A stretch of DNA of 64,000 bases. It comes from Rhizobium sp. C4 (GTDB lineage: Bacteria > Pseudomonadota > Alphaproteobacteria > Rhizobiales > Rhizobiaceae). Below the pieces are notes generated by a model that was not told the DNA's origin, did not search any database, and was given only the letters and a program-made list of their open reading frames with translations. A program made the position numbers and the translations under genes. This document shows positions 35,880-60,191 of the stretch, in pieces. The DNA lies in contig NZ_JAJNCX010000002.1 of assembly GCF_021026315.1 (NCBI RefSeq), positions 186,001 to 250,000 on the forward strand, in the 5' to 3' direction. Position 1 is the stretch's first letter. Each line of letters begins with the position of its first letter.

Positions 35880-36041
35880 AGTCTGCCTCCCGTCTTCGGA
35901 CCCTTTATCGCTGCCCTTTGCGGAAACCGCCACCGGGTCGAGAGGTGGCCAACCGTCAAATTACATATGTGCAGCTTGGAAGGTCCGGATTTGCCGTCGC
36001 GGCAAAGCAATCCACTGTTGGGGGAAAGATACGAGGACATC

Positions 36042-41470: not shown

Positions 41471-42889
41471 TCAGAATTGCAGGGACTTTGTCTCGACGAA
41501 TTCCTCGATGCCGAATTCACCCAATTCGCGGCCATAGCCTGATTGCTTGAAGCCACCGAAGGGCGCGAGTGCATTGAAGCGGCCGCCATTGATCTCGATC
41601 TGGCCCGTCCGGATGCGCCGTGCCGCTGCCGTTGCCCGTTCTTCGCTTCCAGCCCAGACCGAACCCGAAAGCCCGTAACGGGAATTATTGGCAATCGCCA
41701 CCGCATCATCGTCGTCTCTGGCCGTCAGGATCGCGAGCACGGGACCGAACACCTCCTCCTGCGCCAGGGTTGCATCGGGGGAGACATCGGCGAAGATGGT
41801 GGGCTTGACGTAGTAGCCGCCGTCCAGTCCCTCCGGCGCGTCTGCCCCTCCCGTCACCAGCGTCCCGCCTTCATTCTGCGCTGTCTGGATCAGATGCCGG
41901 ATACCTTCCCGCTGCTTGTGGGAAATCACCGGGCCGAGGCGGGTTGCCGGATCGAGCGGATTGCCAAGCACGAAGGCGCGCGTGGCCTCACGCGCGATTT
42001 CGACTGCTTCGTCTTTTCTGGCCTGCGGGACGATCAGGCGCGTCAACGCCGAGCAGGTCTGCCCGGAATTGAGGAAGCAGGCGTTCACGGTGGCTTTCAC
42101 CGCTTTGGCAAGATCGGCATCCTCCAGCACCACGGCTGCGGACTTGCCGCCGAGTTCCAGCGAAATTCGCTTGATCTGGCTGGCCGCCTCGCGGGCGAGC
42201 ATGGCGCCGGTCTTGGTCGAGCCGGTAAAGGAGATCATGTCGACATCGGGGTGCGTGGCCAGATGCAGGCCGATTTTCGCGCCGGGGCCGGTCACGACGT
42301 TGAAGATGCCGGCAGGCGCACCAGCCGCCTCGAAGAGATCGGCCAGAAGAAGGGCATTGAGGGGCGCGAGGTCGGCTGGCTTCAGGACCACCGTGCAGCC
42401 GGCGGCAAGGGCAGGGGCCACTTTCGCGGCGATCTGATGAAGAGGATAGTTCCACGGCGTGATCGCCGCAACGACGCCAACGGCTTCCTGGATGACGGTG
42501 GAATTGCCGACCTTTCGTTCGAAGGGAAACGCATCCGCGATCCGCGCCGTGTTCTGAAAACTCTGCAGCGGAAGACCGACCTGGATCATCTTGGCGAGCT
42601 TTAAAGGCATGCCGACTTCCAGCGTGATGGCCTTCGCAAAATCGTCCTGACGCTCTTCAAGCATCGCCCCAACCTTGGCAAGGACAGCCGCGCGCTCGGC
42701 GACTGACGTCGCCATCCAGCCGGCCAAAGCGGCCTTTGCCGCGGCAACGGCCGCATTGACTTCGGTGGTCGTGCCTGCAGAGATTGTTGCGACCGTTGAT
42801 CGGTCGGCGGGGTTTTCGACGGATGTACCACCCATGGCGCCGGTCCAGACACCATTGATGAAATGGCCTTTATCGTTCCAGATGTTCAT
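41471..42889 (-). CDS. NAD(P)-dependent aldehyde dehydrogenase
   Basis: A 472-residue aldehyde dehydrogenase with N147 in TPWNYP, FTGSTKTG in the cofactor site, E245 in LELGGKS and the nucleophile C279 in NSGQTCSA. It oxidises an aldehyde to a carboxylic acid. ISLELGGKSA and the C-terminal NGGRFNALAPFGGFKQSGYGRE place it in the broad NAD+ ALDH group, and the substrate is open. A link is suggestive: a retro-aldol step (see 47820) would release an aldehyde or ketone, and this enzyme could oxidise it. It is divergent from the NDP-forming acyl-CoA synthetase gene. Confidence 0.92.
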   Translation of the reverse strand: MNIWNDKGHFINGVWTGAMGGTSVENPADRSTVATISAGTTTEVNAAVAAAKAALAGWMATSVAERAAVLAKVGAMLEERQDDFAKAITLEVGMPLKLAKMIQVGLPLQSFQNTARIADAFPFERKVGNSTVIQEAVGVVAAITPWNYPLHQIAAKVAPALAAGCTVVLKPADLAPLNALLLADLFEAAGAPAGIFNVVTGPGAKIGLHLATHPDVDMISFTGSTKTGAMLAREAASQIKRISLELGGKSAAVVLEDADLAKAVKATVNACFLNSGQTCSALTRLIVPQARKDEAVEIAREATRAFVLGNPLDPATRLGPVISHKQREGIRHLIQTAQNEGGTLVTGGADAPEGLDGGYYVKPTIFADVSPDATLAQEEVFGPVLAILTARDDDDAVAIANNSRYGLSGSVWAGSEERATAAARRIRTGQIEINGGRFNALAPFGGFKQSGYGRELGEFGIEEFVETKSLQF

Positions 42890-43065
42890 AATTGCCTCTT
42901 CCGCTTTTCTGCATTCGAAGCTTCATAGCGGATACACGCTTTCGCGTGAGCACGCGGCAGTCTCTGATCACATATGAGCTTTGAGCGGGGGCCGAACCGA
43001 TTTACCAATGACTTCGGCGCCGGCGGCGGCAAGAAATGAGATGCATTATCATCTCGAGGCAAGAC

Positions 43066-45189
43066 ATGACATTTCAGACGTTCCGGCCGGATCCCCGGCT
43101 CGACAAGCTCCTCAATCCGCGTTCCGTCGCCGTCGTTGGTGCATCCGATGATCCGGTGCGGATTTCCGGCCGGCCGCTTGCCTATCTGAAGAAACATGGT
43201 TTTGCCGGGGCGATCTATCCGATCAATCCGAACCGCGAGACCGTTCAGGGCGTCAAGGCCTATCCGTCCCTGATGGACCTGCCGGAAGCGCCGGATGTGG
43301 CCATCATTGCGATCCCGTCGCAACATGTTCTCGCGGCCGTCGCCGACGCGGGCCGAAAAGGCGTGGCGTCCGCCATCATCATGTCCTCCGGATTTGCGGA
43401 AGCAGGCGGCGACGGTACCGCCGCGCAGCAGGAGCTGGCTCGGCTCGGTCGGGAAGGCGGCGTCCGGCTACTTGGACCGAACTGTGTCGGCCTGTTCAAT
43501 GCCACAAGCCGCTTCTATGGAACGTTCACCCAGTCGCTCGATGGCGGTGTGCCGCCTGCGGGTGGCGTTGCGGTCGTCTCGCAAAGCGGTGCCTATGGCG
43601 GCTATATTGCCTATCTCGCCCGTGAACGCGGCCTTGGGGTCAACTACTGGATCACCACGGGCAACGAGGTGGACGTCGATGCAGCCGATGCGATCGGCTG
43701 GCTGGCCCTGCGCGACGACGTGAAGGTCATTGCGGTCTATCTGGAGGGTGTCCGCAACGGGCCAGCCTTCATTCAGGCATTGGCAACCGCACGCGCCGCG
43801 AAAAAGCCGGTTGTCGTGATGAAGGTCGGCCGGTCCGAGGCCGGCGCCATTGCCGCATCGTCCCACACAGCCTCCTTGGCGGGCACCGATGCGGTATATG
43901 ATGCCGTGTTCCGCGAATATGGCGCATTCCGTGCCCGCACGACGGAAGAGCAACTGGATATTGCCGAGGCCTGCCTTGCCGGCAAGTTCCCGGCTGGCAA
44001 CCGGCTGGGCATTGTCACGCTCTCCGGTGGCGTTGGCGTGCAGATGTGCGATGCGGCGGAAACCTACGGGCTCGATGTCGCGCCGATGCCCAAACCGGCG
44101 CAGGAGAAACTTCGCGCGCTGCTGCCTTATGCAGCGGTTGCCAATCCCATCGACACGACGGCGCAGGTCATGAATGACATGTCGCTCGTGTCGAAGAACC
44201 TGGAGATCGTGCTGCGGGATGGGGGCTACGATTCACTGATCAGCTTCCTCACCACGGTGCCGGCGGCACAGGCCTATGGAACCAAGCTTCGCGACGCGAT
44301 CCTGGCGGGCGTGGCAGCCGGCGGTGGCGACAGGCTGGCCGTCTTGTGCATGGCTGCGCCCCAGAATGTGGTGAAGTCCTATCAGGAGGCCGGCTTCCTC
44401 GTTTATCAGGATGCCGACCGTGCGGTTCAGGTCGCAGGTGCACTGACCCATTTCGGCCGGTCTTTTGAGGTCGAGCAGAAGCACATCGATGTCGCGGCGG
44501 CGCCGCGCTTCCAAACGGAAGCCGATGCGCTGTCGGAACATGAGGCCAAGGCGGTGCTTGCCAAGGCTGGAATTCCCTTCCTGCCGGAGCGGCTTGCGGC
44601 AACGCGCGATGCCGCGGTTGCGGCTGCCCGCGAGGTGGGGTTTCCGCTCGCGATGAAGATCGTGTCCGGCGACATTCAGCACAAGTCGGATATCGGGGGT
44701 GTCGTTCTGAACATCGCCGATCCCGAAGCTGCAGCGGTTGCCTTCGAGACGATCATGGCCAATGCGCGCAGGCATATGCCGGACGCTCAAATCGACGGCG
44801 TGCTTGTCGCGCCCATGGCGCCGCAGGGAATAGAAACGATCATCGGGGTGATGCGCGATCCGGTCTTCGGTCCGGTTGTCATGTTCGGACTTGGCGGGGT
44901 GCTGGTCGAGGTCCTCAAGGACGTGACCTTCAGTGTCGCGCCCTTCGATGAGGTTGAAGCCCTGGCCATGATCCGCCGGATCAAGAGCTATCCGTTGCTG
45001 GAAGGCGTGCGAGGCGCCGGTCGCTCCGACATCGAGGCGCTGGCAAAGGTTCTTTCGGCAGTTTCGCATTTCGCGGCCAGAAATAGCGACACGATCGAAA
45101 GTCTCGATCTGAACCCCCTGCGGGTCTTGCCCGGCACGCAAGGGACCGTCGCGCTTGACGCGGTCATCGTGCCGAGGAAGTCGGTATAG
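43066..45189 (+). CDS. NDP-forming acyl-CoA synthetase (acetate-CoA ligase, ADP-forming type)
   Basis: A 707-residue fused acyl-CoA synthetase. The N-terminal CoA-binding domain has RSVAVVGASDDP (20-30); the middle ligase domain contains the phospho-acceptor H267 in SSHTASLAGTD and SQSGAYGG; the C-terminal ATP-grasp domain (about 485-707) has FPLAMKIVSGDIQHKSDIGGV. It interconverts acyl-CoA plus ADP and phosphate with acid plus ATP and CoA. The ATG at 43066 has GAGG six bases upstream; an earlier ATG at 43036 lacks a site. It could activate an acid or recover ATP from a product acyl-CoA. It ends at a perfect hairpin. Confidence 0.92.
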   Translation: MTFQTFRPDPRLDKLLNPRSVAVVGASDDPVRISGRPLAYLKKHGFAGAIYPINPNRETVQGVKAYPSLMDLPEAPDVAIIAIPSQHVLAAVADAGRKGVASAIIMSSGFAEAGGDGTAAQQELARLGREGGVRLLGPNCVGLFNATSRFYGTFTQSLDGGVPPAGGVAVVSQSGAYGGYIAYLARERGLGVNYWITTGNEVDVDAADAIGWLALRDDVKVIAVYLEGVRNGPAFIQALATARAAKKPVVVMKVGRSEAGAIAASSHTASLAGTDAVYDAVFREYGAFRARTTEEQLDIAEACLAGKFPAGNRLGIVTLSGGVGVQMCDAAETYGLDVAPMPKPAQEKLRALLPYAAVANPIDTTAQVMNDMSLVSKNLEIVLRDGGYDSLISFLTTVPAAQAYGTKLRDAILAGVAAGGGDRLAVLCMAAPQNVVKSYQEAGFLVYQDADRAVQVAGALTHFGRSFEVEQKHIDVAAAPRFQTEADALSEHEAKAVLAKAGIPFLPERLAATRDAAVAAAREVGFPLAMKIVSGDIQHKSDIGGVVLNIADPEAAAVAFETIMANARRHMPDAQIDGVLVAPMAPQGIETIIGVMRDPVFGPVVMFGLGGVLVEVLKDVTFSVAPFDEVEALAMIRRIKSYPLLEGVRGAGRSDIEALAKVLSAVSHFAARNSDTIESLDLNPLRVLPGTQGTVALDAVIVPRKSV

Positions 45190-45254: not shown

Positions 45255-46055
45255 TCAGGGTTTCGGCTGCTTGCGCCGTTGCTTTGCAATGAACTCGGAG
45301 GCGATGGCGTGATGTTCCTCGCTGAGCGTGGCGGCCAGCTGGCGTCCGAGTGTTGCGTCCAGCATCTCGGCGGCGTTTCGGTGCAGATAGAGGTTCATCA
45401 GCTTCTTCGTCTCGCGCAGCGCATTGGCCGGCTGAGCCAGCATCTTGTCTGCGAGAGCCCGCGCCTCTTCCATCAGGAGCTCCGGCTTCACCACCCGGTT
45501 GGCCAGGCCGAACTCGACGGCCTGTTGCGGCGTGATCCGATCCCCCGTGAAGATCAGCTCCTTCGCTTTCAGGAGACTCGTATAGAGCGGCCAGGAGATG
45601 GAGATCCCGTCGCCGACTACCAGTCCGATATTGATATGCGGTTCCGCCATGAACGCGTTTTCAGACATGAGGACGATATCGCTGAGTGTTGCCAGCGTCG
45701 CGCCCCAGCCGACAGCCGGCCCGTTGACCGCTGCGATGATCGGGATGGGCACGTCGATAAAGCTATGGATCGTCCGGCGGGCGTTTTCCTGGACACGGCG
45801 TGCAAAGCCTTCGTCTTCCAGCGTCTTGACGAAATGCCCCATGTCCCCGCCGGCGCTGAAGGCCCGGCCGGCTCCGGTCATGATGGCGACGCGGGCGTCC
45901 GTGTCTTCCGCCAGGGTTTGAAACAGCCTGGGAAAGGCAAACAGCATCTCCGTCGTGGATGCGTTCATATCGGCCGGACGATCGAGCGTGATCAGGCGCA
46001 ACGGCCCTTCAATCTCCACTTTGAGCCCGTCCGGCAGGTCATAGGCGTTTTCCAT
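45255..46055 (-). CDS. Enoyl-CoA hydratase/isomerase family
   Basis: A 266-residue crotonase with AFSAGGDMGHF, NGPAVGWGATLATLSDI and EPHINIGLVVGDG. Like the protein at 30709, the first classical Glu is Thr and the second position is His, so standard hydration is unlikely. The C-terminal tail QRRKQPKP departs from the usual EKRxPxF ending. An AGAGGAAG site precedes the ATG. It lies 52 bases downstream of an iron alcohol dehydrogenase gene on the same strand and is likely cotranscribed with it. Confidence 0.84.
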   Translation of the reverse strand: MENAYDLPDGLKVEIEGPLRLITLDRPADMNASTTEMLFAFPRLFQTLAEDTDARVAIMTGAGRAFSAGGDMGHFVKTLEDEGFARRVQENARRTIHSFIDVPIPIIAAVNGPAVGWGATLATLSDIVLMSENAFMAEPHINIGLVVGDGISISWPLYTSLLKAKELIFTGDRITPQQAVEFGLANRVVKPELLMEEARALADKMLAQPANALRETKKLMNLYLHRNAAEMLDATLGRQLAATLSEEHHAIASEFIAKQRRKQPKP

Positions 46056-46107: not shown

Positions 46108-47247
46108 TCAGCCGGAAAGGGATGATTGCAGCAGCATCCGGTAGTCTTCGGCAGACGGTCTGATGGGGTTGGTCAGCGTCGAGACGTCGTCCACGGCATA
46201 AGCCACCATCTCTTCGACATCGTCGGCGGAGACGCCCATGGCGCCCAGATTTGCGGGAATCCCCAGCCGTTGGTTCAGCGCGACAATCGCATCGGCGATG
46301 TCGGCGCCGGATTTCAATCCCATCGCCGAAGCGAGCACGTCCAGCTTAGCCGTCACATGCGGTGCGTTGAACCGGAGGACCGGCGGCAGGAGCACGGCAT
46401 TCAACGTGCCGTGATGAAGCTTTAGCCGCTCGATACGGCCGGCGGCGTGGCTCATGGAATGGACGGCGCCAAGGCCCTTGGTAAAGGCCAGCGCACCCTC
46501 GATCGCGGCCATCATCATGTCGCCACGCGCTGCCAGGTCGCTGCCGTCGGCAACCGCTCGCTCCAATGCGCCATCGCCGATGGCCCGCTTGAGGCCGTCG
46601 AGACCGATCGCATCGGCGATCGGGTTGAAGAGCGGGGAGAGGTAGGCCTCGATGCAGTGGGTGACGGCATCCATCCCTGTCGCGGCGGTCAAGGACCGGG
46701 GCAGTTTGAGTGTCAGCTCGGGGTCGCAGATCGCCACATCGGGGATAAGGTAGGGACTGGCAATCGTGGATTTCCGACCGTCCGCTGTCACGATGACCGT
46801 GCCGACGCTGACTTCCGTTCCCGTCCCTGCCGTCGTCGGGATCGCGATCAGCGGTCCAACCTTGCCGATCTTGCCCTGACCCTTGCGTGCCGTTTCGTAC
46901 TGGGCGAGTGGTTCGGGATGGCTCGCCAGAAGATTGACGGCCTTGCCGAGATCGATCGGCGACCCGCCGCCGATGGCAACAATGCCGTCGCAGCTCTCCG
47001 CGCGATAGGTCTCCAGCGCCGCCTTCACAGCGGCTTCGGTCGGGTTGGGCGGCGTGCCGTCATAGACGATCCAGGCCAGGCCCTCCGGCCAATGCGCCTT
47101 AACCTGATCGAGAATCCCCGCGGCGGCAATGCCCTGATCCGTGCAGATCAGCGGACGCTTCACGCCCAGTTTCTGCAGTTCTGCGCCTATTCTTTTGATG
47201 GCGCCGGCCTCGTACCACACTCGATTGACGAACTGGAGCAGCGGCAT
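46108..47247 (-). CDS. Iron-containing alcohol dehydrogenase
   Basis: A 379-residue group III (iron-type) alcohol dehydrogenase. The dinucleotide motif GGGSPIDLGK (93-102), PTTAGTGTEVS (138-147), and metal ligands D193 and H197 (GMDAVTHCIEAY), H263 (VHSMSHAAG) and H279 (KLHHGTLNAVLL) are all present. It interconverts an alcohol and an aldehyde or ketone with NAD(P)H. The start at 47247 follows GCGAGGATCACC; the frame reads on to 47997 but that part overlaps an opposing gene region and does not resemble the family. It is divergent from the DUF35/aldolase operon, so carbonyl products from that operon are candidate substrates. Confidence 0.92.
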   Translation of the reverse strand: MPLLQFVNRVWYEAGAIKRIGAELQKLGVKRPLICTDQGIAAAGILDQVKAHWPEGLAWIVYDGTPPNPTEAAVKAALETYRAESCDGIVAIGGGSPIDLGKAVNLLASHPEPLAQYETARKGQGKIGKVGPLIAIPTTAGTGTEVSVGTVIVTADGRKSTIASPYLIPDVAICDPELTLKLPRSLTAATGMDAVTHCIEAYLSPLFNPIADAIGLDGLKRAIGDGALERAVADGSDLAARGDMMMAAIEGALAFTKGLGAVHSMSHAAGRIERLKLHHGTLNAVLLPPVLRFNAPHVTAKLDVLASAMGLKSGADIADAIVALNQRLGIPANLGAMGVSADDVEEMVAYAVDDVSTLTNPIRPSAEDYRMLLQSSLSG

Positions 47248-47436: not shown

Positions 47437-47823
47437 GTGGACGTCATGGACCAGATCAGACCAGAACGCGACTACGAAGCCTTCCTCGCCGAGGGGCGCT
47501 TCATGATCCAACGCAGCCGCTCGAGCGGTGCCTATGTGTTTTATCCGCGGGTAGCCGAGCCGCGCACGGGTGCCAGAGACCTGGAATGGGTCGAAGCCAG
47601 TGGCGACGGCATCGTCTATTCCGTGACCGTCGTGCGCAAACGCCCCCCGGAGCAGGATTACAATGTCGTCCTCATCGATCTTGCCGAAGGGCCGCGCATG
47701 ATGTCGCGCGTGGTTGATATCGAGCCTTCCGCCGTCAAGATCGGCATGAAGGTGAAGGCGAAAATAGCCTCGGAAGACGGCAAGCCGCTCGTCGTCTTCG
47801 CACCCGTGGGAGATCAGGCATGA
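47437..47823 (+). CDS. DUF35 OB-fold protein lacking the zinc-ribbon cysteines
   Basis: A 128-residue DUF35 protein. The C-terminal OB fold is clear: DLEWVEASGDGIVYSVTVV, then NVVLIDLAEGPRMMSRVV and KIGMKVKAKI. The N-terminal part, where most relatives have a CxxC...CxxC zinc ribbon, reads MIQRSRSSGAYVFYPRVAE and has no cysteine at all. DUF35 proteins are partners of thiolase-fold enzymes, notably the Ltp2 retro-aldolase of steroid side-chain degradation. The next gene encodes such a protein and overlaps this stop by four bases. The GTG at 47437 is taken as start because of spacing to GAGAG; an ATG at 47446 is possible. Confidence 0.85.
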   Translation: MDVMDQIRPERDYEAFLAEGRFMIQRSRSSGAYVFYPRVAEPRTGARDLEWVEASGDGIVYSVTVVRKRPPEQDYNVVLIDLAEGPRMMSRVVDIEPSAVKIGMKVKAKIASEDGKPLVVFAPVGDQA

Positions 47824-48977
47824 GCAGTGGTGCATTTCCGCGCGGTGGTACCGCGTTCGTCGCCGGTGCGACCTATGGCATGGGCGAAGCCCCCGGCTAT
47901 GATTCGCTGGACCTTGCCGTTCATGCCAGCCTGAAGGCGCTGGACATGGCGGGCATGACGCCTGCCGATGTTGACGGTCTTTTCGTTGCACTTCCATCCG
48001 ACATGATGTCCCAGCTGTCGATGGCGCAATATCTCGGCATCCAGCCCCGGGTCATGAGCAACAATCGGGTCGGCGGATCGTCATTCCAGACCTACGCGCA
48101 TATGGCCGCTCTGGCGCTTGAGGCCGGTGAGTGTGACGTCGCGCTGATCGCCTATGGCAGCAACCAGCGCACGGCTTCCGGCAAGCTGGTTGCCAGCACA
48201 AGGCCCTCCATCTATCAGGGCCCCTACAAACCGCTGTTGCCGATCTCGGCCTATGCGCTTGCCGCCTCCCGGCACATGCACGAATACGGCACGACGCGGG
48301 AGCAACTGGCGGAAGTCGCTGTTGCCGCACGCAAATGGGCCAATCTCAATCCGGATGCCTTCATGCATGGTGATCTGACGATCGAGGATTGCCTGAATGC
48401 CCGCATGGTCTCGGATCCTTTCACCAAGAATGATTGCTGCCTTGTCACCGATGGTGCCGCGGCCGTCGTGATGACGCGCGCTGATCGCGCCAAGGATCAC
48501 GCGGCCCGCCCGGCCTATCTGCTGGGCGCGGCATCGGCGACGACGCATATGGAGATTGCGTCCATGCCGGATCTGACCGTCACGGCTGCCGTCGAATCCG
48601 GCCGTCGTGCCTATGCCCATGCAGGCGTCGGGCCGAAGGATATCGATGTGGCGGAGGTCTACGACGCGTTTACGATCAATACGATCCTGTTTCTCGAAGA
48701 CCTCGGTTTCTGCCCGAAGGGCGAGGGGGGACGGTTCGTTGAAGGTGGTGCGATTGCGCCGGGCGGAAAGCTTGCCGTCAACACCAATGGCGGTGGTCTG
48801 TCCTGTGTCCATCCCGGCATGTATGGCCTCTTCACCATGGTCGAGGCGATGGAACAGGTCATGGGGATTGCCGGCGATCGTCAGGTCAAGGATGTCAACC
48901 TTGCCTTGTCGCATGGCAATGGTGGAACATTGTCGAGCCAGGCCACGCTTATTCTCGGATCGGAGGCAACATTGTGA
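47820..48977 (+). CDS. Thiolase-fold lipid-transfer-protein family enzyme, Ltp2-like retro-aldolase candidate
   Basis: A 385-residue SCP-x/Ltp-type thiolase-fold protein. It lacks both thiolase cysteines: the nucleophile region reads NNRVGGSSFQ (81-90) and the second-cysteine region reads SHGNGGTLSSQ (364-374). Instead Y281 in EVYDAFT and Y335 in CVHPGMYG sit where Ltp2-type aldolases have functional tyrosines (by memory of the family). The likely reaction is retro-aldol cleavage of a branched 3-hydroxyacyl-CoA, giving acetyl- or propionyl-CoA plus a ketone or aldehyde. A DUF35 partner gene overlaps upstream and a crotonase gene overlaps downstream (GTGA). Ordinary thiolase activity is unlikely. 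Confidence 0.8.
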   Translation: MSSGAFPRGGTAFVAGATYGMGEAPGYDSLDLAVHASLKALDMAGMTPADVDGLFVALPSDMMSQLSMAQYLGIQPRVMSNNRVGGSSFQTYAHMAALALEAGECDVALIAYGSNQRTASGKLVASTRPSIYQGPYKPLLPISAYALAASRHMHEYGTTREQLAEVAVAARKWANLNPDAFMHGDLTIEDCLNARMVSDPFTKNDCCLVTDGAAAVVMTRADRAKDHAARPAYLLGAASATTHMEIASMPDLTVTAAVESGRRAYAHAGVGPKDIDVAEVYDAFTINTILFLEDLGFCPKGEGGRFVEGGAIAPGGKLAVNTNGGGLSCVHPGMYGLFTMVEAMEQVMGIAGDRQVKDVNLALSHGNGGTLSSQATLILGSEATL

Positions 48978-49762
48978 GTGAAGATACCGACGCGCCCGTC
49001 AGGATAGAGTTCAAAGGTCCCATCGCGATCGTGACGATGGACAATGCAAAGACGAAGAATGCACTGTCTCCGGAAATGATCCGCGATCTTGGCGATCGGT
49101 TCGAGCAGTTGATGGGCGACTGGAACTGCCGCGCCATCGTGCTCACCGGCGCCAATGGAGCCTTTTGCTCAGGCGGCGACGTCTCGCGCATGCAGCGGGA
49201 CCGGCAGGTTCTCGACACGCGCACCTATATCGGCGGCGCGCATCGCATCTTGCGCGCCATGGTCAATGGGGCCAAGCCTGTGATTGCGGCCGTTGAAGGC
49301 GCGGCCATCGGGGCGGGCATGTCCTTGGTGGCAGCCTGCGATTATGCGGTAGCGTCACAGAGATCGAAGTTCTGCGCGGCCTTTGCCAAGGTAGGCCTTG
49401 CCCCCGATTCAGGGCTTTACTGGACATTGCCGCAGAGGGTCGGCCTCGGTCGCGCCAAGAAGCTGATCATGCTGGCAAACACCTTTGCCGCAGCAGAGGC
49501 GGAGCGCATTGGCCTGGTTGACGAAGCGGTCGACGACGGAACGGCGCTGACGCGCGCCATCGTAGTGGCGGAAGAATTTGCCGCTGCCGCGCCGTTGTCG
49601 ATTGCCGTGACCAAGGCCGTTTACGCCGATGGCGTGCTGACGCTGGATGACGCGTTCCGTGCCGAGCGGGATCATCACCCCATGCTGGTGCGCAGTGCCG
49701 ACCACCTGAACGCAATCGACGCATTCCGTGAAAAGCGCCAGCCGAAATTTGAAGGAAAATAG
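48974..49762 (+). CDS. Enoyl-CoA hydratase/isomerase family, PaaG-like
   Basis: A 262-residue crotonase with AFCSGGDVSRM (63-73), VEGAAIGAGMSLVAACD and D145 in KVGLAPDSG, the PaaG-type Asp. Both classical hydratase glutamates are missing. The GTG start overlaps the upstream stop by four bases, so it is translationally coupled to the aldolase-like gene. It belongs to the same subgroup as 24256, 25026 and 25822. It is likely an isomerase preparing or rearranging the substrate of the aldolase step, but direct evidence is lacking. The gene ends at a classical terminator. Confidence 0.86.
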   Translation: MSEDTDAPVRIEFKGPIAIVTMDNAKTKNALSPEMIRDLGDRFEQLMGDWNCRAIVLTGANGAFCSGGDVSRMQRDRQVLDTRTYIGGAHRILRAMVNGAKPVIAAVEGAAIGAGMSLVAACDYAVASQRSKFCAAFAKVGLAPDSGLYWTLPQRVGLGRAKKLIMLANTFAAAEAERIGLVDEAVDDGTALTRAIVVAEEFAAAAPLSIAVTKAVYADGVLTLDDAFRAERDHHPMLVRSADHLNAIDAFREKRQPKFEGK

Positions 49763-52203: not shown

Positions 52204-52971
52204 ATGCGAGGATTGAAGGACAGGCGCGTTATCATCACCGGCGGGGCGAGCGGCATCGGGCGGGCGACCGCGTTGCGGCTTGCTGAGGAAGGGTGTGTCG
52301 TCGGGATATTTGATCTCAACGGCAAGGCCGCTCAGGAATTGGCGGCGGAGGCAAAGTCAGCAGGCCGGACCGTATTCGGATATGCCGTCGACATTACCGA
52401 CCGGGATGCGATCGAGCGTGCCGTCGATGCGTTCGAGGCTGAAGCGGGGCCGGTTGAACTTCTGGCAAACGTTGCCGGCTGGGACCTTCCCGTCCCGTTT
52501 CTCGATACGGACCGGGCCTTCTGGGACAAGGTCATCCAGATCAATCTCTATGGGCCGCTCAACATGCACCACGTCGTTGTGAAGCGCATGGCCGAGCGTC
52601 GTTTCGGCAGGGTGGTCAACATCGCGTCGGACGCCGGCCGTGTCGGCTCCTCGGGCGAGGCGGTCTATTCTGCCTGCAAGGGCGGCATCATCGCCTTCAC
52701 CAAGACGGTGGCGCGTGAACTCGCACGCAGCGGCGTTGTCCTGAACGTCGTGGCACCCGGGCCGACCGACACGCCGCTCTTTGATGGTTTCAAGGCTGCC
52801 TCGCCAACGGGGGGCAAGATTGCCGAAGGTCTTGCCCGCGCCATTCCGCTCGGGCGGCTGGGTGACCCAAGTGACTATCCGGGCATGATCGCGTTTCTTC
52901 TCAGCGACGACGCCGCCTTCATCACCGGCCAGACCATCAGTGTCTCCGGTGGCCTGACAATGCACGGCTGA
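52204..52971 (+). CDS. Short-chain dehydrogenase/reductase
   Basis: A 255-residue SDR with TGGASGIGRATA (about 13-24), FDLNG at the end of strand 2 (NAD preference), NVAGWD, the serine in NIASDAG, and YSACKGG with the catalytic Tyr and Lys. The C-terminus has AAFITGQTISVSGG. Related proteins oxidise 2- or 3-hydroxyacyl-CoAs in alicyclic acid degradation. GAAGGAG stands upstream of the ATG. It is the first gene of a three-gene operon with an MFE2-type dehydrogenase and hydratase, spaced 14 bases from the next start. Confidence 0.89.
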   Translation: MRGLKDRRVIITGGASGIGRATALRLAEEGCVVGIFDLNGKAAQELAAEAKSAGRTVFGYAVDITDRDAIERAVDAFEAEAGPVELLANVAGWDLPVPFLDTDRAFWDKVIQINLYGPLNMHHVVVKRMAERRFGRVVNIASDAGRVGSSGEAVYSACKGGIIAFTKTVARELARSGVVLNVVAPGPTDTPLFDGFKAASPTGGKIAEGLARAIPLGRLGDPSDYPGMIAFLLSDDAAFITGQTISVSGGLTMHG

Positions 52972-52985
52972 AAGAGGAGCAAGCA

Positions 52986-53897
52986 ATGGGAATGGTTGAA
53001 GGAAAGGTCGCGATCGTGACCGGAGCAGGGCGCGGCATCGGCCGATCGGTCGCGCTGCAGCTTGCCGCCGAGGGCGCGCATGTCGTGGTCAACGATATCG
53101 GGGTCGCCCTTGATGGCTCCGGCGCGGACACGGGGCTTGCCGCCACGGTGGTGAAGGAAATCGAGGCTGCCGGCGGGAGTGCCGTTGCCAGTACGCTGTC
53201 GATCTCGGAACCGCAGAACGCGCAAGGGATCATCGACACGGCGCTGGACGCTTTCGGGCGCGTCGACATCGTCGTCAACAATGCCGGGATCATCCGGGAC
53301 GCAATCTTCCACAAGATGTCATGGTCCGACTGGATGGATGTGATTCAAGTCCATCTTCACGGCAGCTTCGGCCTGAGCCGTGCGGCGGCCACCTGCTTCC
53401 GCGAGCAGAACAGCGGCAGTTTCGTTCACATGACATCCACCTCCGGCCTGATCGGGCAGGTGGGGCAGGCCAATTACATGGCGGCCAAGATGGCAATTGT
53501 CGGCCTGTCGCGCGGCATCGCACTCGACATGCGGCGCTATAACGTCCGCTCGAACTGCGTCGCGCCTTTCGCTTGGAGCCGCATGACCAGTTCCGTTCCG
53601 AGCGAGACCGAGGTGGAGAAGGCGCGTGTTGCGCGCTTTCAGCAAATGGATCCGGACAAGGTTGCGCCGCTCGTCGCCTTCCTGGGGTCGGATGAGGCAA
53701 AGGATATTTCCGGGCAGATTTTCTGCGTCCGGAAGAACGAGGTCATGCTGTTCAGCCAGCCGCGGCCGTTGCGCACCATTCACACGGCGGAAGGCTGGAC
53801 GCCCTCGTCGCTCGGGCAGATGATCAATTCCGCCTTCAAAGGCTCTCTCGTTCCGCTCGAAGTCTCGGGCGATGTCATCATGTGGGATCCGGTCTGA
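52986..53897 (+). CDS. HSD17B4/MFE2-type 3-hydroxyacyl-CoA dehydrogenase (SDR)
   Basis: A 303-residue SDR longer than the classical type. It starts GKVAIVTGAGRGIGRSVAL, then VVVNDIGVALDGSGADTG, a stretch typical of the dehydrogenase part of peroxisomal multifunctional enzyme 2. NNAGIIRDAIFHKMSWSDW, HMTSTSGLIGQVGQANYMAAKMA with Tyr and Lys, and a C-terminal extension of about 60 residues are present. It should oxidise a (3R)-hydroxyacyl-CoA with NAD+. The next gene encodes the matching hydratase part, so the pair is a split MFE2. The pair resembles SDR and hydratase proteins of actinobacterial sterol side-chain degradation. Confidence 0.88.
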   Translation: MGMVEGKVAIVTGAGRGIGRSVALQLAAEGAHVVVNDIGVALDGSGADTGLAATVVKEIEAAGGSAVASTLSISEPQNAQGIIDTALDAFGRVDIVVNNAGIIRDAIFHKMSWSDWMDVIQVHLHGSFGLSRAAATCFREQNSGSFVHMTSTSGLIGQVGQANYMAAKMAIVGLSRGIALDMRRYNVRSNCVAPFAWSRMTSSVPSETEVEKARVARFQQMDPDKVAPLVAFLGSDEAKDISGQIFCVRKNEVMLFSQPRPLRTIHTAEGWTPSSLGQMINSAFKGSLVPLEVSGDVIMWDPV

Positions 53898-53899
53898 TC

Positions 53900-54760
53900 A
53901 TGGCTATCATCTACGAAAAACTGATGAATCTCGAAATCCCGACCATCGAGCAGACCTATACCCAAAAGGACACGATGCTCTATGCGCTGGGCGTGGGTCT
54001 CGGGCAGGATCCGACGGATCGCGAGCAGCTGCGTTTCGTCTACGAGCAGAACCTGAAGGCGCTGCCGACCCAGGCCGTCGTGCTTGCCCATCCGGGTCTC
54101 TGGGTTCGCGATCTGGATACTGGCATTGACTATGTGAAGGTGGTTCACGGCGAGCAGGGCCTTGTCCTGCACAAGCCGCTTCCGCCTTCAGGCACCGTCC
54201 TTGGCATCTCCCGGGTGACGGGCGTGTTCGACAAGGGAGAAGGGAAGGGAGCTCTCGTTCTCTCCGAACGCAAGATCGTCGACAAATCGACCGGCGATCT
54301 GCTGGCGACCATCACCCAGAACACATTTTGCCGTGGCGACGGTGGCTTTGGCGGCCCGAGCGGACCGACGCCTGCCCCGCATGTCCTGCCTGAGCGTGAA
54401 GCGGATATGGTCTGCGATCTGGCGACAGTGCCGCAGGCGGCCCTGATCTACCGTCTGAACGCCGATATGAATCCGCTGCATGCCGATCCGGATATTGCGG
54501 CAAAGGCCGGCTTTGCGCAGCCCATTCTCCATGGGCTGGCGACATATGGCGTCTCCGGCCACGCGGTGCTGAAATCCGTCTGCGGCTATGATCCGGCGCG
54601 GTTGAAGTCGCTGAATTGCCGTTTCACCGCACCGGTCTATCCGGGCGAAACGTTCCGTACGGAAATCTGGATCGACGGCACGATCGTCAGCTTCAGAACA
54701 CGGTCTCTGGAGCGTGATATCGTTGCAATATCAAACGGTCGGGCTGAAATCGCGGGCTGA
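53900..54760 (+). CDS. MFE2-type enoyl-CoA hydratase 2 (MaoC double hot-dog)
   Basis: A 286-residue double hot-dog hydratase. The N-terminal half ends with the typical CRGDGGFGGPSGP (about 147-160). The C-terminal half carries the hydratase 2 motif in YRLNADMNPLHADPDIAAKAGFAQPILHGLATYG, with catalytic Asp and His. It forms (3R)-hydroxyacyl-CoA from trans-2-enoyl-CoA, the substrate of the dehydrogenase encoded just upstream. The ATG at 53900 is two bases after the upstream stop; an earlier in-frame start at 53882 overlaps that gene. It is followed by a classical terminator, closing the operon. Confidence 0.92.
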   Translation: MAIIYEKLMNLEIPTIEQTYTQKDTMLYALGVGLGQDPTDREQLRFVYEQNLKALPTQAVVLAHPGLWVRDLDTGIDYVKVVHGEQGLVLHKPLPPSGTVLGISRVTGVFDKGEGKGALVLSERKIVDKSTGDLLATITQNTFCRGDGGFGGPSGPTPAPHVLPEREADMVCDLATVPQAALIYRLNADMNPLHADPDIAAKAGFAQPILHGLATYGVSGHAVLKSVCGYDPARLKSLNCRFTAPVYPGETFRTEIWIDGTIVSFRTRSLERDIVAISNGRAEIAG

Positions 54761-55019: not shown

Positions 55020-56168
55020 TTGATCTTGGCGCTCGAACTGAACGAAGACCAATTGCAAATTCAGGATCTCGTGCGGCGCGTGGCGCGCGAGAAGGTGGCA
55101 GCGCGTGCGCAGGAAATCGACCTGACGGCAGAATACCCCCACGACATGTTCGAGCTGGTCAAGGAACTCGGATTGTTCACGCTGCCGTTTCCGCCGGAAT
55201 ATGGCGGTACGGGCAGCATGCTTTCGGCCTGTGTCGCGGTCGAGGAACTGGGGCGCGTCTGCTACAACACGGCCTATCTGCTTGTCGTGCAGTGGGTGCC
55301 GATCGGCGCAATCCTGGCCGGTGGCAGTCCCGAGCAGAAGCAGAAATATCTCCCCGGCCTTGCATCCGGCGACCTGCGCGGCGCGCTGTCGCTGACTGAG
55401 CCGCAAAGCGGCTCCGATGTGGCGGGCATCAAGACGCGTGCGCGGCGCGACGGCAACGGCTTCCGGCTCAACGGCTCGAAGATCTGGTGCACGAATGCCG
55501 GCATGGCGGACTTCGTTCTCGTCGCCGCCAAGACGGGCGAGGACGACGAACGCGGCAAGATCAACCTGTTCATCGTCGACAAGGGAACCCCCGGCTTCGT
55601 TGTCGGCCGCAAGGAAGACAAGATCGGCGCGCGGGGCGTACCGTCCCATTCGCTCTTCTTCGACAACGCCTATGTGCCTGCCGAAAATATGCTCGGTGAC
55701 GAGCAGACCGGGTTCCGCGTTGCCATGGCGGCCCTCAACGATTCGCGCCCGATCATTGGCGCGCGCGGTGTCGGGCTTGCGCAAGGCGCGCTCGATCACG
55801 CCATCGAATTCATCAAGAGCCGGCGGGCCTTCGGCCAGGCGGTTTCGGATTTCCAGGGCGTGCGCTGGATGGTCGCCGACATGGCGATCCAGATCGAGGC
55901 GTCCCGCAGGCTGGTCTACCAGGCGGCTGCGGCCGTCGATGCGGGCATCAAGGGCAAGGAGCTGGCGCAGCTGGCAGCGATCGCCAAATGCCATGCGACC
56001 GATACCGCCATGTCCGTCGCCACGGACGCTGTGCAGCTTTTCGGGGCAGCCGGCATTTCCAATGAATACCCCATCAACCGCTATTTCCGCGACGCGAAGG
56101 TGCTCCAGATCATCGAGGGCACCAACCAGATCCAGCGGAACATCATCTCACGCAATCTTCTCGACTGA
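55020..56168 (+). CDS. Acyl-CoA dehydrogenase (classical, with C-terminal catalytic Glu)
   Basis: A 382-residue acyl-CoA dehydrogenase of the short/medium-chain type. It has LSLTEPQSGSDVAGIKT, NGSKIWCTNAG, FGQAVSDFQGVRWMVADM and the canonical IIEGTNQIQRNI with the catalytic Glu. It oxidises an acyl-CoA to trans-2-enoyl-CoA and passes electrons to ETF. The start is uncertain: TTG at 55020 or TTG at 55026; a GAGG at 55006 and GGGG at 55015 are possible ribosome sites. It is the first gene of a six-gene operon. Unlike the pair later in the same operon it is self-sufficient, so it likely acts on a simpler intermediate. Confidence 0.9.
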   Translation: MILALELNEDQLQIQDLVRRVAREKVAARAQEIDLTAEYPHDMFELVKELGLFTLPFPPEYGGTGSMLSACVAVEELGRVCYNTAYLLVVQWVPIGAILAGGSPEQKQKYLPGLASGDLRGALSLTEPQSGSDVAGIKTRARRDGNGFRLNGSKIWCTNAGMADFVLVAAKTGEDDERGKINLFIVDKGTPGFVVGRKEDKIGARGVPSHSLFFDNAYVPAENMLGDEQTGFRVAMAALNDSRPIIGARGVGLAQGALDHAIEFIKSRRAFGQAVSDFQGVRWMVADMAIQIEASRRLVYQAAAAVDAGIKGKELAQLAAIAKCHATDTAMSVATDAVQLFGAAGISNEYPINRYFRDAKVLQIIEGTNQIQRNIISRNLLD

Positions 56169-56191
56169 TACCGGCATTGGAGGAAATGACT

Positions 56192-56665
56192 ATGGACGTA
56201 CTGGGACTTGGCCTTTTTTACGAAGATTTGCCGGTTGGCCGCTCCTTCAAGACGATTGGGCGCACCATCACCGAGACAGACATCATCAACTTCACGACCT
56301 GTACCGGCATGACCGAGGTCCTGTTCACCAATCATGAATTTCAGGATAGCGAGTCCGATATCCAGGGGCGGGTGTCGCCGGGCGCGCTGGTCTTCACCTT
56401 CTCGGAAGGTCTGCTTGTCCATGCCAGCATGCAGCATACCGGCTTTGCATTCCTCAGCATGGACCTCGAAATCAAGGGACCGACGGTGGCCGGCGATACG
56501 ATCCATGTCGAGGTGGAAGTCATCGAATCGCGGCGCTCCGCCAGCCGGCCGACCCGCGGCCTTGTCCGCACGCGCAACAAGGTCGTGAACCAGAAGGGCG
56601 AAACGATCATGGTCTACACCCCGCTTCGCATGGTGAAGGCCCGCACCGACGGAAAGGCCGCCTGA
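56192..56665 (+). CDS. MaoC-like hot-dog dehydratase
   Basis: A 157-residue single hot-dog protein: YEDLPVGRSFKTIGRTITETDIINFTTCTGM, then GALVFTFSEGLLVH, KGPTVAGDTIHVEVEV and TRGLVRTRNKVVNQKGE. It resembles MaoC dehydratases of the mesaconyl-CoA hydratase-like group in which the Asp-His motif is modified (here TTCTGMTEVLF). The ATG at 56192 has GGAGG eight bases upstream; ATG 56186 and TTG 56177 are too close or lack a site. The next gene starts inside the stop (TGATG). Hydration of a branched or cyclic enoyl-CoA in this operon is the inferred role. Confidence 0.8.
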   Translation: MDVLGLGLFYEDLPVGRSFKTIGRTITETDIINFTTCTGMTEVLFTNHEFQDSESDIQGRVSPGALVFTFSEGLLVHASMQHTGFAFLSMDLEIKGPTVAGDTIHVEVEVIESRRSASRPTRGLVRTRNKVVNQKGETIMVYTPLRMVKARTDGKAA

Positions 56666-57897
56666 TGACCGAGCGTGCGCCACAGCCCGGAAATGCCGGG
56701 CCGCTGTCCGGATTTCGCATCATTGATCTGACGACCAATGTGCTCGGGCCCGTGGCCACGCAGATCCTCGGCGACATGGGCGCCGATGTGGTCAAGATAG
56801 AAGCGCCTGAGGGCGATCATACCCGCCATGTCGGTCCTTCGCGCAGCGAGGCCATGGGCGTCTTCTTTCTGAACATCAACCGGAACAAGCGCAGCGTTGT
56901 CCTCGATCTGAAGAAGCCCAAGGCGCGCGAGGCTCTTTCCCGGCTGATTGAAACGGCGGATGTCTTCGTCCACAGCATGCGCCCGGATGCGGCCAAGCGT
57001 CTCGGCATCGACTATCAAACGCTCACGCGGCTCAATCCGAAGCTCGTCTATGCCTCGGCGAGCGGTTATCGACCGGCGAGTTCGCGCCGGAACTGGCCGG
57101 CCTTTGACGACGTGATCCAGGGCTTGAGCGGTATCGCTTCCATGAACGGCCGCAACATCGGTGAGCCGCGCTACTTTCCGACGGTGATTGCCGACAAGCA
57201 TTGTGGCTATGTGCTGTCTTCGGCCATTTCCATGGCGCTCCTCTGGCGCGAGCGCACGGGCGAGGGGCAGGAGGTTCATGTGCCGATGATGGAAAGCATG
57301 GTGACGTTCAACATGCTTGAGCATCTGTGGGGCGGGGTGCTGGACGAACCGGAGCTGGGTCTTGGCTACAGCCGCATGTTCACACCCCATCGCCGGCCTT
57401 ACCGGACCATCGACGGATATATCTGCCTGCTCGCCAATACCGATGAACAATGGCACCGGCTTTTCAACGTCATCGGTTGCCCGGAGATGGGAAAAGACCC
57501 GCGCTATGCCAAGGTGAATGCGCGGTCCAGGAACATCGATGCTGTCTATGCGATCCTGGCCGACCGGATGGCGCAGGAAACGACGGACGAATGGCGCCGG
57601 CGGCTCGATGAGGCCGACATTCCGAACGGCCCCGTTCAGGATTTCGACGATCTCCTCAACGACCCCTATCTTGAGGAGACGCACTTCTTCCAGAAGGTGA
57701 GCCATCCGACGGAGGGACGGTACATGACGACCGCCATTCCTGTCGAATTTTCCAAATCCGGCGGGACGATCCGCCGGCTCGCCCCCAGGCTCGGCGAACA
57801 CACGCAGGAAGTTCTGCGCGGTTGCGGCCTTTCAGACACGGAAATTGATGCTCTGACGCAAACGAGGTCGGCAGAGAAGGTCCTGGTGAACACGTGA
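56665..57897 (+). CDS. Family III CoA-transferase (CaiB/BaiF)
   Basis: A 410-residue CaiB/BaiF protein: FRIIDLTTNVLGPVATQILGDMGADVVKIE (14-43), NRNKRSVVLDLK, VHSMRPDAAKRLGID, and a candidate catalytic Asp in VIADKHCGYVLSSA, followed by RTGEGQEVHVPMMESM. It moves CoA from an acyl-CoA to an incoming acid. It overlaps the upstream stop as TGATG and the downstream start by GTGA. A second transferase of the family ends this operon, so one may activate the substrate and the other release a product, or they act on different acids. Confidence 0.9.
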   Translation: MTERAPQPGNAGPLSGFRIIDLTTNVLGPVATQILGDMGADVVKIEAPEGDHTRHVGPSRSEAMGVFFLNINRNKRSVVLDLKKPKAREALSRLIETADVFVHSMRPDAAKRLGIDYQTLTRLNPKLVYASASGYRPASSRRNWPAFDDVIQGLSGIASMNGRNIGEPRYFPTVIADKHCGYVLSSAISMALLWRERTGEGQEVHVPMMESMVTFNMLEHLWGGVLDEPELGLGYSRMFTPHRRPYRTIDGYICLLANTDEQWHRLFNVIGCPEMGKDPRYAKVNARSRNIDAVYAILADRMAQETTDEWRRRLDEADIPNGPVQDFDDLLNDPYLEETHFFQKVSHPTEGRYMTTAIPVEFSKSGGTIRRLAPRLGEHTQEVLRGCGLSDTEIDALTQTRSAEKVLVNT

Positions 57898-59018
57898 CAA
57901 ACAACAATGACAATGCAGAGCGGCGAGCGCAGCAGCAACTCATTACCGATGCTGTAACCGCCTTCGCACGACGCGAGCTTTCTCCCGCCGCGATGCGACC
58001 CGGCACGATCAGTCGCAAGCGATGGCAGGGGCTGGCGGAACTGGGATTGATGGCGATGCTTCTCCCGGACGAGGCGGGTGGATTGGGCCTCAAGATCGGT
58101 GATCTTGTTCCCGCTCTCGAAGCGCTCGGCAAGCCCTTGCTCAGAGAGCCGCTGGTCGCATCTTCGGTGCTCGCCGGTTCGCTTCTCGTGGGTGTCGCGC
58201 GCAATGCCAAGGCGGCAGACCTGCTCGAGCAACTGGCCGCAGGCGCGCTCTTGGCCGGCGTTGCCTGGCAGGAGACCTATCGTCTGGAGGGTGACCATAT
58301 CAAGACGACACTGGCGAGCGATGCTCACGGCCATGTCCTGAGCGGGCGCAAGGTTCTGGTGGTTCCGGGCTCCGAGGCAGACGGGCTGCTGGTGTCGGCC
58401 AATGCCGATGGCAAGACGGCACTTGTCTGGGTTTCTGTCGATGCGGAAGGGGTGCGGGCCGAAAACGGCAGGACTGCCGATGGCGGCGCTGTCGCGACCT
58501 TCCATTTCGACAATGTCAAAATCGACGCCGCAGACATTCTGTCGACCGATGCTGCCGATGTTCTCGCGCAAAGCCTGCAGGTTGCGACGATTGCTGCGAG
58601 TGCGGAGCTTCTCGGCCTTATTCGCGGTGCGATGGATATCACCATGGACTATCTGCGCACCCGCAAGCAGTTCAACAAGACCATTGGATCATTCCAGTCG
58701 CTCCAGCATCGCGCCGCCGACCTGTTCATCCAGCAGGAACTGTCGGCCGTCGCCATCAGCCGGGCGGCCGCCGATTTCGAAGCGGCAGCCACTGCGCAAG
58801 AGCGCGCGACGGCTGCGAGCCGGGCAAAGGCGCGGCTGTCGTCGGCCGCTCTGATCGTCACCAAGGAAGCGATCCAGATGCATGGCGGCATCGGCTATAC
58901 CGATGAGCATGATATCGGACTTTATCTCAAGCGTACGCTGACCCTGTCCGCCTGGCTTGGCAATGCGGCGGAGCATCGTGCTCGGTTCGCCGAACTGACG
59001 ATGGACGAAGCAGCATGA
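57894..59018 (+). CDS. Acyl-CoA dehydrogenase, likely non-catalytic partner subunit
   Basis: A 374-residue acyl-CoA dehydrogenase-fold protein. It has MLLPDEAGGLGLKIGDLVPALEALG in the N-terminal domain and QMHGGIGYTDEHDIGLYLKRTL near the end. No C-terminal EGT motif and no helix-G ER glutamate are present (the region reads QVATIAASAELLGLI). As with the protein at 11964 it probably pairs with the neighbouring dehydrogenase. The GTG start overlaps the upstream stop (GTGA) and its own stop overlaps the next start (ATGA), giving tight coupling of presumed subunits. Confidence 0.87.
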   Translation: MTNNNDNAERRAQQQLITDAVTAFARRELSPAAMRPGTISRKRWQGLAELGLMAMLLPDEAGGLGLKIGDLVPALEALGKPLLREPLVASSVLAGSLLVGVARNAKAADLLEQLAAGALLAGVAWQETYRLEGDHIKTTLASDAHGHVLSGRKVLVVPGSEADGLLVSANADGKTALVWVSVDAEGVRAENGRTADGGAVATFHFDNVKIDAADILSTDAADVLAQSLQVATIAASAELLGLIRGAMDITMDYLRTRKQFNKTIGSFQSLQHRAADLFIQQELSAVAISRAAADFEAAATAQERATAASRAKARLSSAALIVTKEAIQMHGGIGYTDEHDIGLYLKRTLTLSAWLGNAAEHRARFAELTMDEAA

Positions 59019-60178: not shown

Positions 60179-60191
60179 CATGGAGTTTCCA

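Follow-up and report, generated by a model that had tools for sequence, protein, structure and literature searches.

A predicted retro-aldolase of the thiolase fold with a zinc-free DUF35 partner in Rhizobium sp. C4

In a stretch of 64,000 nucleotides from Rhizobium sp. C4 (contig NZ_JAJNCX010000002.1; this whole stretch is called the window below), a gene for a DUF35 protein, P0001, overlaps by 4 bp the gene for a thiolase-fold protein, P0002. This overlap, the absence of Cys from P0001, the motifs VGG and HGN at both catalytic Cys sites of P0002 and its residues Y281 and Y335 had all been described in an initial annotation and were found as stated (Table 1). We consider it probable, at roughly two chances in three, that the pair is a two-protein Tyr/His retro-aldolase acting on a 3-hydroxyacyl-coenzyme A (CoA) ester with a zinc-free DUF35 partner. 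The core idea of the initial annotation, a thiolase-fold retro-aldolase with such a partner, agrees with the phylogeny, with the covariation of residues, with the predicted folds and with the gene context, but the active site is not of the Tyr/Tyr type of Ltp2. Translation of P0001 was taken to start at GTG 47437, and the in-frame ATG at 47446 is also possible.

P0002 matched Thiolase_C_1 of Pfam with 229.9 bits and PRK06158 of NCBIfam (NF004811) with 631.7 bits (cut-off 421). Contrary to the initial annotation it is not cysteine-less, as Cys occurs at six positions (105, 191, 206, 207, 298 and 329), none of them at the nucleophile column; this column holds Gly86, where SCP2-type thiolases and acetyl-CoA acetyltransferases carry their nucleophilic Cys. 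HMMER alignments to Ltp2 of Thermomonospora curvata (TcLtp2) and Sal of Comamonas testosteroni (CtSal), with the numbering checked against the residues named in an excerpt of PMC12329534, placed Tyr281 on TcLtp2 Tyr294 and CtSal Tyr302, and His331 on TcLtp2 Tyr344, CtSal Gln352 and the His of the GHP motif of thiolases. Tyr335, the other Tyr pointed out in the initial annotation, fell on TcLtp2 His346 and is ruled out as the counterpart of Tyr344, because His331 holds that position.

Conservation was examined in 92 members with a known partner, namely the window, 20 loci from searches of family and phylum genomes, and 71 of 80 loci kept as the best of at least 588 relatives from a scan of named genome contigs (tblastn E <= 1e-3), which were not scored one by one against the PRK06158 cut-off. 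Two pairs of loci in this set (L014/L059 and L031/L136) apparently represent the same genome each. G85, G86, Y281, D282, A283, F284 and H331 were identical in 92/92 members, and Asn323 and Y335 were each kept in 91/92, a conservation that exceeds chance. Part of the conservation in the stretches FLEDLGFC and NTNGGGLS[CF] results from selection, as these peptides served for the scan; neither of them includes residues 281-285 or 331-335. Cys207 and Cys298 were also invariant (92/92), and Cys329 was replaced by Phe or Trp in 5/92. No Cys was found at columns 84-89 in any of the 92 members, and one was found in one of ten others (L045, Cys87). Cys298 does not qualify as a substitute nucleophile since TcLtp2, CtSal and thiolases have it at the same place. 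A displaced nucleophilic Cys, which would have spoken against the initial annotation, was thus looked for at columns 84-89, Cys207, Cys298 and Cys329 and ruled out.

The AlphaFold2 model of P0002 had a predicted local distance difference test score (pLDDT) of 92.2. Foldseek ranked 4u4e first, followed by 9myr (Sal) and 6ok1 (Ltp2), with TMq 0.88 each, and Sal and Ltp2 outranked the thiolases by E-value. The same three were the closest solved chains by HMMER (4u4e 339 bits, 9myr 164 bits, 6ok1 158 bits). P0002 has what the known aldolases share: the thiolase fold (by model and Foldseek), Gly in place of the nucleophilic Cys and the Tyr of a YDxF/Y motif.

For the superfamily, 60 phylum-wide and 76 class-wide genomes, two overlapping sets, were searched with PF22691; 40 further stretches from PF22691 hits and 11 earlier loci (L002-L004, L022-L029), eight of which came from the PRK06158 search, were added. 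The alignment comprised 93 different proteins that were long enough, drawn from part of the hits, with the window counted once (as L190). Column 86 lacked Cys in 49/93, and all 49 had Tyr at position 281, whereas the 44 members with Cys had His (42) or Gln (2) there. A DUF35 gene lay within the fetched stretch for 48/49 Cys-less members vs 4/44 Cys-bearing ones. His was the commonest residue at position 331 of the Cys-less members (36), the others having Gln (6), Tyr (6) or Gly (1); in the two structurally characterised aldolases, Ltp2 and Sal, it is Tyr and Gln, respectively. Cys was counted strictly at column 86. Columns 84-88 together gave 13 cases of Cys with Tyr, but their Cys comes one column later than the nucleophile (GGC). 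If the proposed reading is right, the switch from Cys/His to Gly/Tyr would make it simple to distinguish likely aldolases of this superfamily from thiolases by sequence. As a separate observation, L023, L024, L193, L216, L217, L219, L220 and L236 form a sister clade with YDAF and GGCSF; the position next to the former nucleophile column holds a Cys there, which could be active or a relic. The short stretch of L233 contains two reading frames that resemble thiolases; they have QDTE for HDxF and GEP for GHP and keep the nucleophilic Cys.

In a quick tree the Cys-less members formed one side of a single branch, so that the state changes once (SH-like approximate likelihood ratio test, SH-aLRT, 98). 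A more careful tree of 61 rows gave a Cys-less clade of 52 rows (support 100/98) that includes TcLtp2, CtSal, 4u4e and the window, and P0002 grouped with Ltp2 and Sal, away from the Cys-bearing thiolases. Within this clade the window fell in a 28-row subclade with 4u4e (99/98), apart from CtSal in one 7-row subclade (96/96) and TcLtp2 in another (96/94). The window's own genome has a second pair of a Cys-less thiolase-fold protein and a DUF35 protein (L002, L139; C7), with YDCY, Gln at the position of residue 352 and four Cys in its DUF35; it groups with CtSal.

P0001 contains no Cys at all. Alignment to relatives put S27, S30, E41 and T44 at the four zinc-ligand positions, and the protein matched the OB domain PF01796 (OB_ChsH2_C) with 72.2 bits (cut-off 27.1) but not the zinc ribbon PF12172 (zf-ChsH2), for which Pfam gave no match at E 0.1. 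PF12172 scored above its cut-off of 23.2 bits in 4/4 four-cysteine partners tested (44-54 bits) and in 0/5 of those tested that have no Cys at the ligand positions; L082, with one Cys, passed at 25.6 bits. The AlphaFold2 model had a pLDDT of 91.7 (87 for residues 31-40, 90 for residues 41-50), and the best folds were the DUF35 chains of 6ok1 (Ltp2) and 9myr (Sal), over 121-128 columns. By its sequence P0001 probably binds no metal. The zinc-free state was the commoner form among the relatives examined and is no peculiarity of this genome: ligand Cys were absent in 67 of the 92 pairs, four were present in 23 and one in 2 (65, 23 and 2 of 90 when L014 and L031 are left out), which rules out an accident of this genome. 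On a quick thiolase tree of 112 rows, some with long branches, the zinc state changes four times, and three of these changes are forced by well-supported branches; one change falls in an outgroup (L050). Losses are the simpler reading, since nine of ten outgroup rows have four Cys. If the proposed reading of the pair is right, the DUF35 zinc site, present in the homologous complexes compared in the excerpt of PMC12329534, would be dispensable. Separately from the losses in the PRK06158 family, the DUF35 of L050, from an outgroup subfamily, lacks three of four zinc Cys.

A DUF35 gene lay directly upstream of the thiolase-fold gene in 70/80 loci, with a 4-bp overlap in 34 of these 70. In L032, known from a single assembly, both parts are joined in one open reading frame of 537 aa, with the zinc Cys present. 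These arrangements are consistent with P0001 and P0002 forming a complex. Partner loss was considered for the ten loci without a DUF35 gene found within 3 kb (nine of the 80, and L045) and ruled out, as a DUF35 gene was present in 10/10 genomes; by eye, the best-scoring one had no Cys at the four ligand positions in all ten. For L045 this is a diverged Cys-less DUF35 gene directly upstream that tblastn had missed. Nine loci (L085, L094, L098, L100, L102, L106, L111, L120 and L123) form a clade in which the thiolase-fold and DUF35 genes have become separated. Five of these loci continue with a crotonase gene and what is presumably an epoxide hydrolase gene.

Gene context was compared between those of the 80 loci that span at least 15 kb (65) and 39 hand-picked 20-kb control stretches from eight genomes that also carry PRK06158-type hits. 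Homologues of the MaoC/hydratase-2 gene were found in 38/65 loci vs 0/39 controls, of crotonase in 54/65 vs 2/39, of acyl-CoA dehydrogenase in 49/65 vs 1/39, of class III CoA-transferase in 48/65 vs 4/39, of the short-chain dehydrogenases/reductases (SDR) in 49/65 vs 6/39 and of the ADP-forming ligase in 16/65 vs 0/39. The gene order DUF35, thiolase-fold, ligase, MaoC recurred in several Rhodobacterales and Pseudomonas loci, and neighbourhoods vary between lineages. The aldehyde and alcohol dehydrogenases, which the initial annotation had suggested as processing the released carbonyl, are indeed encoded nearby, but their link to the reaction is weak because homologues of the iron-type alcohol dehydrogenase occurred in only 8/65 loci (0/39 controls). 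A canonical thiolase (query: window 1636-2772) was found in 1/65 and 4/80 loci; we dropped its rarity as an argument for an aldolase because the controls had none either (0/39), so that no depletion is seen. The gene at 1636-2772 is the one canonical thiolase identified by scans of the window and lies about 45 kb from the pair.

DUF35-dependent thiolase-fold aldolases are already known, and the pair resembles two of them. The steroid aldolase Ltp2 with the DUF35 domain of ChsH2 (6ok1) has the thiolase fold, no nucleophilic Cys, the Tyr of a YDxF motif and a DUF35 partner, as has the pair; unlike P0002, which has YDAF and His331 (the latter in 92/92), it has YDHF and Tyr344, and it falls in a separate clade. 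According to the excerpt of PMC12329534, the zinc site of its DUF35 partner consists of four Cys, none of which P0001 has. The bile acid aldolase Sal with the DUF35 domain of Shy (9myr) also shares the fold and the DUF35 partner. Its Tyr302, the equivalent of Tyr281, belongs to a YDCY motif and is essential, and Gly stands at the place of the thiolase nucleophile (PMC12329534, excerpt). It differs from P0002 in Cys304 (Ala283) and Gln352 (His331) and in belonging to a separate clade, and its DUF35 domain, part of a fusion with a MaoC hydratase, carries a zinc site of the Cys3His1 type (same excerpt), unlike the zinc-ligand-free P0001. As neither the second catalytic Tyr of Ltp2 nor the YDCY motif of Sal with its catalytic Cys304 is found, P0002 belongs to neither type. 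The closest solved structure, 4u4e, a 'putative thiolase' of Sphaerobacter thermophilus with 47% identity, shares the 28-row clade but sits in a different subclade from the window, and has YDSF and a His in an HPGMYG motif. The benzoylsuccinyl-CoA thiolase BbsAB (7pxp) and the archaeal thiolase/HMG-CoA synthase complex (6esq) combine a thiolase fold with a DUF35 partner like the pair; unlike P0002 they have an HD motif and are thiolases, and 6esq keeps the nucleophilic Cys (HMMER alignment).

From these comparisons we infer the substrate class, the reaction and what Tyr281 and His331 do in it, as follows. A hydratase would make the 3-hydroxyacyl-CoA from a 2-enoyl-CoA, and P0002 would bind it in the old, Cys-less thiolase site, where Tyr281 would take the proton from the 3-hydroxyl and the C2-C3 bond would break. 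The resulting acetyl- or propionyl-CoA enolate would be reprotonated, most likely by His331, the retained GHP histidine of thiolases, and an aldehyde or ketone would leave. Tyr281 and His331 are thus the natural candidate catalytic pair. The zinc-free DUF35 protein would bind next to this site, like ChsH2-DUF35 in the Ltp2 complex, and would shape the acyl pocket. Such a reaction would bypass 3-hydroxyacyl-CoA dehydrogenase and thiolase, as needed if the 3-carbon is tertiary or otherwise non-oxidisable; the substrate may be branched, as the initial annotation held.

Several points weigh against this reading. The second catalytic residue of the known aldolases, Tyr344 in Ltp2 and Cys304 in Sal, is missing from P0002, which has His331 and Ala283 instead. 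Exchange of Cys304 for Ala abolished the activity of Sal (PMC12329534, excerpt), so that the YDAF motif of P0002 would be dead in a Sal background and the acid would have to come from elsewhere than position 283; Ala283 is moreover Ser or Cys in 10/14 outgroup rows. Confidence in the model of P0002 is lowest around the loop with His331 (pLDDT 60 for residues 321-330 and 81 for residues 331-340), and the four Protein Data Bank rows of the careful tree are fragments transcribed from HMMER alignments. In 9/80 loci the 3 kb around the thiolase-fold gene did not include the DUF35 gene, and in L123 it stands beside another thiolase-like gene. The hydratase association, at 38/65 loci, is not universal, and the P values of the context comparison overstate the case because the case loci, which are related and not independent, also served to build the neighbourhood models.

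A retro-aldolase could also be at work on other substrates. The pair can be likened, by description only, to IpfD/IpfE, of which we take IpfE to be a DUF35 protein; their substrate is a ring dihydrodiol acyl-CoA, unlike the chain substrate proposed for P0002. On this model P0002 would detach the whole side chain from a ring-hydroxylated aryl- or cycloalkyl-acyl-CoA and would not serve chain beta-oxidation. An excerpt of PMC9195938 assigns the retro-aldolase/thiolase step in the breakdown of ibuprofen by a sphingomonad to IpfDE, and a BadH-like SDR and many crotonase-family genes of the window would suit a ring substrate; as no aromatic ring dioxygenase was seen among those window genes that were scanned, and hydratase genes in 38/65 loci fit hydration followed by cleavage better, we regard this as unlikely. 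P0002 could also be a decarboxylase, or some other lyase that splits C-C bonds without thiolysis, acting at the vacant thiolase site on CoA esters of the malonyl or 3-ketoacyl type. In favour of this, His331 and Asn323 are kept, and the trypanosome protein TbSLP decarboxylates malonyl-CoA slowly (quoted in the excerpt of PMC12329534). It seems improbable to us, given that Sal had no malonyl-CoA decarboxylase activity (same excerpt), that two aldolases stand in different branches of the Cys-less clade and that a hydratase neighbour would be without purpose.

Little credence is given to a non-catalytic scaffold or substrate carrier of the thiolase fold, or to some other role such as acyl transfer. 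PhlA sets a precedent as an inactive partner in the thiolase superfamily (PMC2954200, excerpt), but the active-site residues of P0002 are invariant across three proteobacterial classes, and 72/80 loci have no second protein matching the family model and hence no active thiolase of the same type to assist. A true thiolase with a displaced nucleophile is barely credible: the six Cys of P0002, two of them invariant and Cys329 only two residues before His331, and the GGC of 13 Cys-less superfamily members could be taken to favour it, whereas columns 84-89 are free of Cys in all partnered members, Cys329 is replaceable, Cys298 is shared with TcLtp2, CtSal and thiolases, and Tyr stands at 281 in all 49 Cys-less members.

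We see an even chance that the pair represents a third, so far undescribed catalytic type, with Tyr281/His331 against Tyr/Tyr in Ltp2 and Tyr/Cys in Sal, in which the DUF35 zinc was given up more than once and which serves as a common proteobacterial route, beyond steroids, for 3-hydroxyacyl-CoAs barred from thiolysis. This would add a new catalytic residue set to the short list of thiolase-fold aldolases; run in the aldol direction, retro-aldolases of CoA esters also attract interest as catalysts. The family, of which the contig scan gave at least 588 relatives, is widespread and little studied, and its annotation would then be corrected. The name of PRK06158, 'acetyl-CoA acetyltransferase', implies a thiolase, yet by alignment the 92 relatives examined are without the nucleophilic Cys, and members would be misnamed if the third aldolase type is true. 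PRK06158 scored above cut-off in 14/151 genomes of the window's family and 17/398 of its phylum, and in 0/14 control genomes. The 80 kept loci comprised 36 from Alpha-, 31 from Beta- and 11 from Gammaproteobacteria, one from Verrucomicrobiia and one unassigned, so that the family is not specifically alphaproteobacterial as first thought. No paper on PRK06158, 4u4e or a zinc-free DUF35 was found in the open-access literature, of which the part on DUF35 was covered incompletely.

Table 1. Features of the gene pair and its surroundings (positions in the window)
Feature	Position	Strand	Remark
Aldehyde dehydrogenase	41471..42889	-	
ADP-forming acyl-CoA ligase type protein	43036..45189	+	homologues in 16/65 loci
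Second crotonase-family protein	45255..46055	-	
Iron-type alcohol dehydrogenase, divergent	46108..47247	-	491.1 bits to 4-hydroxybutyrate dehydrogenase model, cut-off 500
P0001, DUF35 / ChsH2-type OB-fold protein without zinc ligands	47437..47823	+	128 aa
Zinc ribbon remnant in P0001	47515..47568	+	codons 27, 30, 41, 44 = Ser, Ser, Glu, Thr; four Cys in zinc-type relatives
P0002, thiolase-fold protein, NCBIfam PRK06158, predicted retro-aldolase	47820..48977	+	385 aa
V84-G85-G86, replacing nucleophilic Cys loop of thiolases	48069..48077	+	alignment
Y281-D-A-F motif	48660..48671	+	YDHF in Ltp2, YDCY in Sal, HD.. in Cys-bearing relatives
His331	48810..48812	+	aligns with TcLtp2 Tyr344 / CtSal Gln352 / thiolase GHP His
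H365-G366-N367, replacing second catalytic Cys	48912..48920	+	alignment
Crotonase-family protein (ECH), third gene of the run	48974..49762	+	overlaps P0002 gene by 4 bp
Two SDR dehydrogenases	52204..53897	+	first: 337.6 bits to BadH model, cut-off 431
MaoC / hydratase-2 type protein	53882..54760	+	homologues in 38/65 loci vs 0/39 control stretches
Acyl-CoA dehydrogenases, second MaoC-like protein, class III CoA-transferases, in one direction	55020..61418	+	

Within the last block of Table 1 the second MaoC-like protein scored 26.3 bits against a cut-off of 27, and 55020-56168 and 60222-61418 were named by similarity to other loci only. NCBIfam scans of eight crotonases of the window gave no pathway-specific name, and one of them scored above cut-off (35064-35933, PRK06210, enoyl-CoA hydratase). 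The steroid marker KshA_C had no match in the window's own genome, a weak negative as it was above cut-off in 0/14 control genomes either. Nearly the whole window (1-64000) appears as an acyl-CoA catabolic island with many crotonases, acyl-CoA dehydrogenases and class III CoA-transferases, and also contains at least three NMO-like genes (one of them scanned with Pfam), AMP- and ADP-forming ligases and an ATP-binding cassette transporter of the branched-chain type. Several window genes are common to the neighbourhoods of L062, L067, L068 and L075 (Paraburkholderia/Trinickia) and of L065. At 26613-28919 the window encodes a protein of 768 aa in which two class III CoA-transferase stretches follow one another.

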